33,498 bases of DNA from NCBI GenBank assembly GCA_016867335.1, contig VGJU01000015.1:1-33498 (forward strand), read 5' to 3'. Below, piece by piece: positions 20,801 to 24,551 of this stretch. Each line of letters begins with the position of its first letter. The stretch's first letter is position 1. The notes below the pieces were generated by a model. The model was not told the origin of the DNA. It searched no databases and saw only the letters and a program-made list of their open reading frames with translations. The translations under genes and the position numbers were made by a program. This DNA comes from Candidatus Zixiibacteriota bacterium (GTDB taxonomy: Bacteria > JAAXHH01).

Positions 20801-23299
20801 TTAGTGTGGTATGCCAAGGTCGTGCATCCGCCGATGGATCGCCGCAACGGCCTCCCGGTAGGGTTTTTCGAGAAACGCTAAATGATCTTCCTCGCCATGA
20901 TGATGCGTGACGTTGCCATGCGGATGTTGAGCGCTCCGGTGTCGGATATACGATAACCCGCCTTCTACCAGACTCAGCATGTAGTGCGCATTTTCGAGGT
21001 CGAACAGCCGATAGTCTTTCCCACAGGCTATGTATATCGGCGAGGTATGGGCCATGATGCCGCGTCGCCAGCCATCGTGGTGCGGTATGGCAGCGTAGTT
21101 GGGGCCTGCGCACCGCGCCGCCAGCCATGTGTCGCCGTCGATTCGAAGCGATGTCTTGAGCATCAGACGCCGCGTCCCTTGGCGTTCTTCCGTAGACGCC
21201 GCTACCTTTCCCTTGTTTACGATTTCCAGCGAATGCACCGGAAGCGTCGATTCCACCTGTGCTTCGATCTCCACCGTGCCGCCGTTTCCGGTTAGATGCA
21301 CCGTGCTTCCGATGGGATGACCGTTTACCGAAAAACGGATCAGCGGACCGCCGCTGAGAAAAGTATGCCCGCTGCGTAACCCTTTAAGCCAGCTTTCATA
21401 GGTAAACGGCTCGTCCGGCGGGATATATACATAGGTTCGGTACAGCCCCACCGGCACATCGCTCGTCATTTTGTCGGTTCCGCCGGTCAACGGCAACCGG
21501 TAGCCGCAATTCAGATACCGATAGTATTCCAGGTGATTGTACTCGCTGTGAATCAGCATTTCCACCGCATCGGCGCGCCCCGTGGCGATAAGCGCCGCCG
21601 GTTCGCAGTTCGGGTTCGGGATATGAGGAATCACCACGGTTCCGCCCTGACGGTGACACTCGTCCGCCCAATAACTCAGCGTGGTTTCGAGATTGCCACC
21701 CGGTTCGCCTTCCGACGGTCCGTCGGAGCACCAAGGCATGACGGGCGTTTTAAGCCCCAAGAGCGTCAGATGGCCCAGCATATGCTGTCGGTTTTCCTGC
21801 GTGGCGTAGACGATGGTCTCGCCACCCGTCGAAACGCTGGGCCGGCCCGTAAACTCTTCCGTGTTGGTAAACAGACTTCCCCATTGCGAAAGCAACAGGT
21901 TGACAACATTCAACCCTTCGCCCTCGGCTTCGAGGTGGGCACCTTGGGTAGACAGAAAATGGACATGCGTATCCCCGCTGAAATACCGCTGTGCGCTCAT
22001 GTCGATCCAGCGGTTTAGCCGGAGTGTCAGTTCGCGCTGACCGGGCTGTATATACAAGACGGTGCGTAGCGGTTCGTATTCAAAACCACGCGCCACATCC
22101 ACGACGACGTCTCCCCGTGGCAGCCAGCCTTGGCATTTGCCGTCTATATAGGCATACGTGGCCTGGCCTAACCGCACATCACCCCCGATGTCGATGTGCC
22201 AAGTACCCATGTCGGAGTTGACATGGGCATGGTGTCCGTGCGGGGCGTAGGCAATGCCATGCGCGGACCGAAAATGGATACGACAGGGAAGCGGTTTTCC
22301 CGTGGCTCCGTCCAGTACGGTCGTATGCACCCAGTTTCGTCCGGAATCGACGATTTCGAAACGCACTTTCGGAGTATCTACCACCCGGCTTTTATCCAGT
22401 TCACCCCAGTTGACCGTGCCGAGGGTTTCGCCTGACTGTGTTACCGAGACCGTGGCAGACGGTGTTCCGGCGATGCCGACGCAGGCGGGACTGCTGGAAG
22501 TGGCCGACGGTTCTCCCCATCCTTTATGTGTATCGTTGACAAACGCTTCGGTCGACGCGGAAGGTAGCGGATACGGATAGGTAGCAAAACCTCGGTCTAC
22601 CTCTACGGCAAGATCGAAGGGTTTTTGCGCCGCATCCGTCGGATGAAGATCGATGCGCACGTCCTGTACCGCCCAGCGGCAAAAGGGATCTTCGGCAAGA
22701 TGCCCCAGCGTGATGCCCGCGATGAGAAAAGGTTGATCTTCCGGTGTCACTTCGATGCGGCCCAACTCCACATCGGGTTCCGGGTTTTCCCATGCCCATA
22801 GATAATAGGCGCCGGGCCATGCCTGACTGGCCTCGGTCTGACGGCGCCCCGCCTCCTGCCATGCGCCTCTGTGGCGTTCGATCAAGGTATCGGGCTGGTC
22901 GGGCACGCAGAGAAAGGGCAACTGTCCCCACATTGGCGGGAAATATCCTATTTCGAATCGTTCGCGGATGGGGATTGGGTATACGTGACCGTTCGACAGA
23001 TAAAAACGGTATATGGCTATCGTTTTGCCGACCGTTCCGCCCGAAGGGATTTTCGACTCGACCACCGTATGGGCGAACAGCACGCGTTTGGCGCGGGAAG
23101 CGATGGGTATGGAGAGGGGGTGTCCGATAGAAGCGGTGTCGAAACCTATGAAAAGGGGCGAGCCGGACACGCCGCTGCCTATCTGAAAGGGGATACCGCG
23201 AAAGGTCTGGCGGCCTGCCGGGGGATTGACGACTGCCGTGAAAAACGCGGCGTCGGTCTGACACATGGAAGAGATATCCAACGGTTCGTAATCCGGCAT
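20801..23299 (-). CDS. CehA/McbA-family metallohydrolase, large form
   Basis: This is an 832-residue protein. The catalytic PHP-like region starts with H445-x-H447 (SGDTHVHFLS) and continues through a His-rich LGHLTLLGL, VVIPHIPNPN and LTGGTDKM. This is the metal-binding layout of CehA/McbA hydrolases (carbaryl hydrolase relatives and many unassigned enzymes). The N-terminal 400 residues are beta-rich and include an NPCBM-like start (DISSMCQTDAAFF, RGIPFQIG). A C-terminal beta part and a His-rich tail (HPHGNVTHHHGEEDH) follow. No signal peptide is seen. It lies 24 bases after the second STAS gene, so it is likely in the same operon. The substrate is unknown; ester or phosphodiester cleavage is possible. 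Confidence 0.82.
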   Translation of the reverse strand: MPDYEPLDISSMCQTDAAFFTAVVNPPAGRQTFRGIPFQIGSGVSGSPLFIGFDTASIGHPLSIPIASRAKRVLFAHTVVESKIPSGGTVGKTIAIYRFYLSNGHVYPIPIRERFEIGYFPPMWGQLPFLCVPDQPDTLIERHRGAWQEAGRRQTEASQAWPGAYYLWAWENPEPDVELGRIEVTPEDQPFLIAGITLGHLAEDPFCRWAVQDVRIDLHPTDAAQKPFDLAVEVDRGFATYPYPLPSASTEAFVNDTHKGWGEPSATSSSPACVGIAGTPSATVSVTQSGETLGTVNWGELDKSRVVDTPKVRFEIVDSGRNWVHTTVLDGATGKPLPCRIHFRSAHGIAYAPHGHHAHVNSDMGTWHIDIGGDVRLGQATYAYIDGKCQGWLPRGDVVVDVARGFEYEPLRTVLYIQPGQRELTLRLNRWIDMSAQRYFSGDTHVHFLSTQGAHLEAEGEGLNVVNLLLSQWGSLFTNTEEFTGRPSVSTGGETIVYATQENRQHMLGHLTLLGLKTPVMPWCSDGPSEGEPGGNLETTLSYWADECHRQGGTVVIPHIPNPNCEPAALIATGRADAVEMLIHSEYNHLEYYRYLNCGYRLPLTGGTDKMTSDVPVGLYRTYVYIPPDEPFTYESWLKGLRSGHTFLSGGPLIRFSVNGHPIGSTVHLTGNGGTVEIEAQVESTLPVHSLEIVNKGKVAASTEERQGTRRLMLKTSLRIDGDTWLAARCAGPNYAAIPHHDGWRRGIMAHTSPIYIACGKDYRLFDLENAHYMLSLVEGGLSYIRHRSAQHPHGNVTHHHGEEDHLAFLEKPYREAVAAIHRRMHDLGIPH

Positions 23300-23323
23300 G
23301 GTCGTTCCCCTGTGCGATGAAGA

Positions 23324-23665
23324 CTATGTTTTCAAGAAGTTGACCGCCAAATCGAGCGTAGCAAAATTTTTCAACAAGGAGTGTAGTTTGGTTACTTGAA
23401 GCAAATGTTGGATACGTGGAGTCGTATGGATAAGCACCAGTTGTCCGCCTGCCTTCCGAACGGACTTGAAGGCGGCGATCAACGCTCCAAGTCCGGAACT
23501 GTTGAGCAAGGGGACGTCCGCGAGATCGAGGATGATATGATGACGGCCGTTTTCCGAGAGCCGGGTAACGGCGGTATACAGTTTGGCGGTGTCGGTCTCC
23601 CCCCATAATCGTCCGCTTAGCCGCAACACGGCCACATCGCCCGTTAAGGTATCCTCGATTTCCAT
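23324..23665 (-). CDS. STAS-domain anti-anti-sigma factor-like protein 2
   Basis: This is a 113-residue single STAS domain with the phospho-site segment N55-S56-S57-G58-L-G and flanking strands (AVLRLSGRLWGETD, HHIILDLADVPLLN). It is a paralogue of the protein at 20289, but the residue before the serines is Asn instead of Asp. GGGAGAAG lies directly upstream of the ATG. It is followed after 24 bases by the CehA-like gene and preceded by the selenoprotein gene on the same strand (149-base gap). Its partner kinase or phosphatase is not in the window. Confidence 0.9.
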   Translation of the reverse strand: MEIEDTLTGDVAVLRLSGRLWGETDTAKLYTAVTRLSENGRHHIILDLADVPLLNSSGLGALIAAFKSVRKAGGQLVLIHTTPRIQHLLQVTKLHSLLKNFATLDLAVNFLKT

Positions 23666-23741
23666 TTACTTCTCCCGCATTTCGATAACCGAAACCATCG
23701 AGCCGATAACCGCTTGTGAAGTCTACAAATCCAACAAATCC

Positions 23742-23781
23742 TTGACATGCGACCGGAAGCGTAATATCTTTCAAAAGATAG
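23742..23781 (+). promoter_or_regulatory. Orphan rightward promoter overlapped by a palindrome
   Basis: Consensus TTGACA (23742-23747), 17 bases, then TATCTT (23765-23770). A palindrome TATCTTT-CA-AAAGATA (23765-23780) covers the -10. Rightward transcription from here would run antisense through the selenoprotein gene toward the response regulator. No gene starts within the first 380 bases. Confidence 0.45.
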
Positions 23782-23814
23782 AACGTCTGAATTCCCCTGG
23801 ATATACAAGAACGG

Positions 23815-24045
23815 TCACCGTGCCGTCAGGAGCTTTTTGATCTCCTGATAGGTAGGAAATCGGTCCTCGGCCAGTTTCGAGAAGATCGGGTGTTCGTCAA
23901 CTGAAACTTCGAAACAGCCACCGTCGGATGGAATCAGTTCGAGTTTTTCGATATCGTGTTTGAAGTACTCCAGCAGACGAACCGCCAGACCGGCGGCATT
24001 TTCTTCATAGCCTCAGTCTGCGCAGTACCTTATCCGTACGATCAC
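23815..24045 (-). CDS. SelW/Rdx-family selenoprotein with in-frame TGA (Sec)
   Basis: This 76-residue protein is read through TGA codon 11 (24013-24015). It begins MIVRIRYCAD, then Sec, then GYEENAAGLAVRLLEYF, and continues with GGCFEVSVDEHPIFSKL, EDRFPTYQEI and KKLLTAR to a TGA stop (23815-23817). This is the complete Rdx (SelT/SelW/SelH) pattern: CxxC or CxxU after the first strand, an amphipathic helix, then GG-x-FEV-x-VD, IFSK and RFP. C8-x-x-U11 is the redox site, with Sec replacing the second Cys. The GTG start has GGAGG 6 bases upstream and a TTGCCT-17-TACTAT promoter. A SECIS-like hairpin follows the TGA. Family members are thioredoxin-like redox proteins of uncertain client. selA, selB, selC and selD are not in the window. 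A plain nonsense mutation is the alternative. Confidence 0.8.
23981..24015 (-). promoter_or_regulatory. Candidate bacterial SECIS element
   Basis: Starting 16 bases after the UGA, GCCGCC pairs with GGCGGU (five GC pairs and one G-U) around a five-base loop GGUCU. The loop begins 22 bases after the UGA, within the usual window for bacterial SECIS elements. The loop sequence is the one I recall for the E. coli fdhF SECIS, where the loop G and U are needed for SelB binding. It lies inside the coding sequence, as bacterial SECIS elements do. Confidence 0.7.
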
Positions 24046-24087
24046 TCCCGTCCTCCGGTCCAGGGTTCCTTTGAAACTCCCTTTGAC

Positions 24088-24116
24088 ATAGTAACGGACG
24101 CCCGGAATGGAGGCAA
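24088..24116 (-). promoter_or_regulatory. Candidate promoter for the selenoprotein gene
   Basis: On the minus strand, TTGCCT (plus 24111-24116), 17 bases, then TACTAT (plus 24088-24093). This places the transcript start roughly 36 bases before the GTG, with GGAGG inside the leader. Confidence 0.5.
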
Positions 24117-24126
24117 GGACTTTCTC

Positions 24127-24156
24127 TTGCGTTTTCCCTTGCTTTGTTGCTAGATT
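24127..24156 (+). promoter_or_regulatory. Candidate promoter of the response regulator, leaderless transcript
   Basis: TTGCGT (24127-24132), 18 bases, then TAGATT (24151-24156). The expected start of transcription falls on or next to the ATG at 24162, and no ribosome site precedes that ATG. Confidence 0.45.
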
Positions 24157-24161
24157 GTGTT

Positions 24162-24551
24162 ATGAAAAAAATCCTGATCACGGACGATGATCCGAACATG
24201 CTGGAAATCATCTCCATGGCATTTGAGACCACCGGCGGCTCGTATGAAATCCTGACGGCTTCGGACGGTCGCAAGGCTATGGAAATGGTCAAATCCCACC
24301 ATCCGGATCTGTTGATTCTGGACCTTATGATGCCCAATGGACACGGCTATTGGGTTTGTCGGGAAATCCGCTCCGACAAGTCTTTTGACACTATGCCGAT
24401 ACTTGTTCTTTCGGCAAAATACTATCCCAAAGACCGGGAAGAAGTGCTAGCCATGGGGGCCAATGCATTTATGACCAAACCCTTTGCGCTTCGGCAAATC
24501 GTAGAGCGATCCCGGACTCTTATGAACGAACCTTCGGATATATCCGGATAA
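24162..24551 (+). CDS. Single-domain response regulator (CheY-like receiver)
   Basis: This 129-residue receiver domain has no output domain. Acidic pocket D8-D9-D10 (ITDDDPN), phospho-acceptor D54 (LLILDLMMP), S84 (LVLSAK) and K106 (FMTKPF) are all present, so it should be phosphorylated by a histidine kinase encoded elsewhere. It would act by protein contact. ATG 24162 was chosen because the TTG codons further upstream lie in the promoter -10 region. No Shine-Dalgarno site is seen. The MBL-fold gene begins 4 bases after its stop, so the two are co-transcribed and probably functionally linked. The two STAS proteins upstream make a local signalling cluster. Confidence 0.92.
   Translation: MKKILITDDDPNMLEIISMAFETTGGSYEILTASDGRKAMEMVKSHHPDLLILDLMMPNGHGYWVCREIRSDKSFDTMPILVLSAKYYPKDREEVLAMGANAFMTKPFALRQIVERSRTLMNEPSDISG

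Follow-up and report, generated by a model that had tools for sequence, protein, structure and literature searches.

Bacterial SelW-like proteins of the Rdx family (PF10262/TIGR02174) are a group whose function is poorly known. Their selenocysteine (Sec) form, which carries a CxxU motif, contributed 427 sequences to the Global Ocean Sampling set, more than any other prokaryotic selenoprotein family (PMC2398784), and such selenoproteins, with bacterial SECIS elements, are frequent in the marine environment (PMC2398784, PMC1088965). Published bacterial SECIS elements directly follow the TGA, and their apical loop is small and contains a G (PMC1088965). The locus described here shares with the bacterial SelW-like selenoproteins the place of the CxxU motif, the size, the Rdx landmarks and a hairpin, here a putative SECIS, right after the TGA, and differs from them only in its lineage and in the local C-A-D-U residues, with nothing structural to set it apart. 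It also resembles the Cys-form Rdx proteins, such as Atu0228 (2fa8) and Chloroflexi proteins with the motif YCADCGYE, in belonging to the same family by sequence and in the position of the motif, but these have a Cys where this gene most probably has Sec. This kind of gene is already well known; what is new is this member and its lineage, which widens the range of lineages known to have SelW in the Sec form. A literature search, which missed most subscription journals, returned passing mentions of Latescibacterota selenoproteins and no dedicated paper.

The window, i.e. the whole stretch of 33,498 nucleotides that was analysed, contains on its minus strand an Rdx/SelW-like gene (23815-24045), which we interpret, with a probability of about 95%, as a bacterial SelW-like (Rdx) selenoprotein gene whose UGA at residue 11 is decoded as Sec. 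The frame starts with a GTG (24045-24043), preceded at a spacing of 6 nt by a Shine-Dalgarno-like GGAGG (24052-24056, minus strand), ends with a TGA (23817-23815) and contains a single in-frame TGA (24015-24013). The read-through product comprises 76 residues including Sec (VIVRIRYCADUGYEENAAGLAVRLLEYFKHDIEKLELIPSDGGCFEVSVDEHPIFSKLAEDRFPTYQEIKKLLTAR), of which the first is Met in practice, although its codon is GTG. Near the N-terminus lies the CxxU motif, C8-A-D-U11, and the landmarks of the family are found on both sides of the TGA: RYCADU-GYE, GGCFEVSVDE, IFSKL and RFP. A preliminary description of this DNA had proposed such a 76-residue Rdx frame with these landmarks, without giving the strand, and both proposals are confirmed. 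Its suggestion to compare the read-through translation with the Rdx/SelW families was also borne out. The Pfam profile Rdx (PF10262) matched the product with an E-value of 8.1e-21 and 74.5 bits (cut-off 22.6 bits), in an alignment which is unbroken over residues 3-73 and so spans the TGA position, and the NCBIfam profile TIGR02174 (CXXU_selWTH) gave 62.8 bits (cut-off 34.2). These matches far exceed chance. This is a real gene which is easily missed, as gene finding based on stop codons would truncate or skip it. A 110-residue open reading frame (24005-24337), also on the minus strand but in a different frame, extends over the beginning of the Rdx gene; it is probably spurious and could mislead gene callers.

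A search for Rdx genes across the phylum, covering 16 genomes including this one, yielded one gene each in 13 genomes, and each of these genes has a single in-frame TGA. The 12 Rdx-bearing relatives belong to the same family and another genus, the Rdx nucleotide identity between genera being 65-69%, and the TGA codon was identical in all 13 family homologues, i.e. this gene and the 12 relatives. The start codon is also conserved among the relatives, and 11 of the 12 share the GGAGG ahead of it, in the same position, while the remaining one has GGGGG there. Distant homologues titled Chloroflexi (L074-L076) have TGC or TGT at the Sec codon, and solved Rdx proteins, e.g. 2fa8, have a Cys at the Sec position. 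The exchange of Sec and Cys at one codon is characteristic of selenoprotein families. The TGA thus occupies the position of the second Cys or Sec of the family, as had been claimed, and homologues with TGC at this codon, which were to be sought, do exist. Rdx matches in a second collection were titled Candidatus Latescibacterota or Gemmatimonadetes MAGs, to which the lineage of this gene is therefore probably close. As several of them encode proteins identical to ones among the 12 relatives, these MAGs probably belong to the same species as the relatives and do not constitute independent evidence. In one genome of the same family (G001), where selA, selB and selC are present (L045, L049, L088), no Rdx gene was found by search; this genome should therefore encode other selenoproteins.

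Between genera, pS was about 0.6-0.7 and pN about 0.27 in the part of the gene that lies 3' of the TGA. Since synonymous change is well above non-synonymous change, this part is under selection as protein. Synonymous change was low in codons 14-21, at 0.16 compared with 0.40-0.51 elsewhere, calculated over all pairs, which are mostly within one genus. A putative SECIS hairpin (23981-23997, minus strand) has the stem GCCGCC/GGCGGT and a five-base loop, GGTCT, which begins 21 nt 3' of the TGA. The GC stem and the five-base loop starting with G are present in all 13 sequences, at this same distance of 21 nt from the TGA, with an invariant stem core and with GGGTT or GGGCT as the loop of the relatives. 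The hairpin energy of this gene was unexceptional compared with shuffled sequences, and compared with synonymous recodings it gave a p of about 0.25-0.30, the values for the relatives being 0.02-0.12. Judging from its position and conservation, the hairpin is likely a SECIS, its stability alone not being significant.

With regard to the Sec machinery, the genome contains SelB (381 bits) and an Ndh-SelD fusion (289 bits). In the latter (L019), an Ndh-like oxidoreductase domain is joined to SelD, which has a Cys (CAGCGAK) rather than Sec; such fusions are already known from marine metagenomes (PMC2398784). The search for selA, selB, selC and selD that the preliminary description had called for was successful for selB and selD but detected neither selA nor selC in the assembly. 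The tRNA-Sec model gave no match over the cut-off in this assembly of 431 contigs, the matches that were checked being Ser, Leu, Trp and Tyr tRNAs, and direct searches of the assembly with the selC and the SelA of a relative returned nothing convincing. A C-terminal SelA fragment (C185:56-244) was considered as the missing selA and rejected, as it is a SelA-like paralogue adjoining a class II aldolase, an arrangement also seen for the paralogues in L062 and L063. This fragment (L018, 1-256) is the end of what would be a second SelA-type protein beside the true SelA. The gene flanking selA in relatives was likewise not found in this assembly by search, as would be the case if a stretch had been deleted or left out of the assembly. 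In the relatives, the SelB match is followed by selC at a distance of about 40-160 bp; in this genome selB runs off the end of its contig (C27), so that selC would lie just off this contig. Of the 15 phylum genomes searched, 13 had a selC match over the cut-off and 14 had SelA, with this genome among the exceptions in both cases, and a tRNA-Sec(tca) was called in all four relatives checked. We infer that the organism itself carries selA and selC, on sequence which the assembly does not include.

The reading of the TGA as Sec rests on an Rdx match that spans the TGA, on the conservation of this TGA in 13 of 13 homologues, on the Cys in distant homologues, on the constraint past the TGA and on the presence of selB and selD, and it is further backed by the conserved hairpin and by tRNA-Sec and SelA in nearly all relatives. 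These data support the Sec reading of the preliminary description at the level of sequence. The points counted against it are selA, selC and the gene flanking selA, none of which was found in the assembly, and the unexceptional stability of the hairpin. The first three could be explained if the lineage had lost selA and selC, in which case the TGA would now terminate translation and the frame would be the recent remnant of a selenoprotein gene. The assembly from which all three are absent is rated 99.98% complete, and the absence of selA/selB/selD and tRNA-Sec from a complete genome was what the preliminary description regarded as evidence against Sec. For selA and tRNA-Sec, this absence is literally what was observed, but in a genome split into 431 contigs. 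Moreover, selD and, up to the contig cut, selB are intact, selB stops at the contig edge exactly where selC would come next, and the Rdx frame, its start, its ribosome site and the family motifs are all intact, making decay very unlikely. A sequencing error could also be considered, as a one-base change of the TGA gives TGC, and the Cys form is known in homologues; alternatively, the true codon could be TGG (Trp), or the frame could be no gene at all. However, the same TGA occurs in twelve other genomes, which for practical purposes refutes error and chance, and the Rdx match has an E-value of 8e-21. Equally negligible is a reassignment of TGA throughout the genome, to Trp or to some other amino acid, for which no evidence was found. 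In the window, 10 of the 27 genes checked end in TGA, which is thus used as a normal stop; this already refutes such a reassignment, in agreement with the preliminary description, and the tRNA-Trp seen has the anticodon CCA.

If the TGA is read as Sec, as we prefer, SelB and Sec-tRNA(Sec) would decode the UGA at residue 11, and the hairpin directly 3' of it may help this decoding. The product is predicted to be a small thioredoxin-fold protein, in which the C-x-x-U pair would perform thiol/selenol redox chemistry.

Downstream of the Rdx gene lie two conserved neighbours, both on the minus strand: a gene for a STAS-domain protein (23324-23665), followed by one for a large protein (20801-23299) for which no Pfam match was found and which we tentatively call CehA-like. 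These conserved neighbours offer a clue to a possible partner of bacterial SelW. The stretch that comprises the three genes (20801-24045) is possibly an operon. The conserved order could reflect a functional link, with this SelW serving a STAS-domain regulatory pathway as redox partner or sensor; we consider such a role unlikely, and to our knowledge it has not been described for bacterial SelW. The order Rdx, STAS, CehA-like is the same as in the window in eight close named loci.
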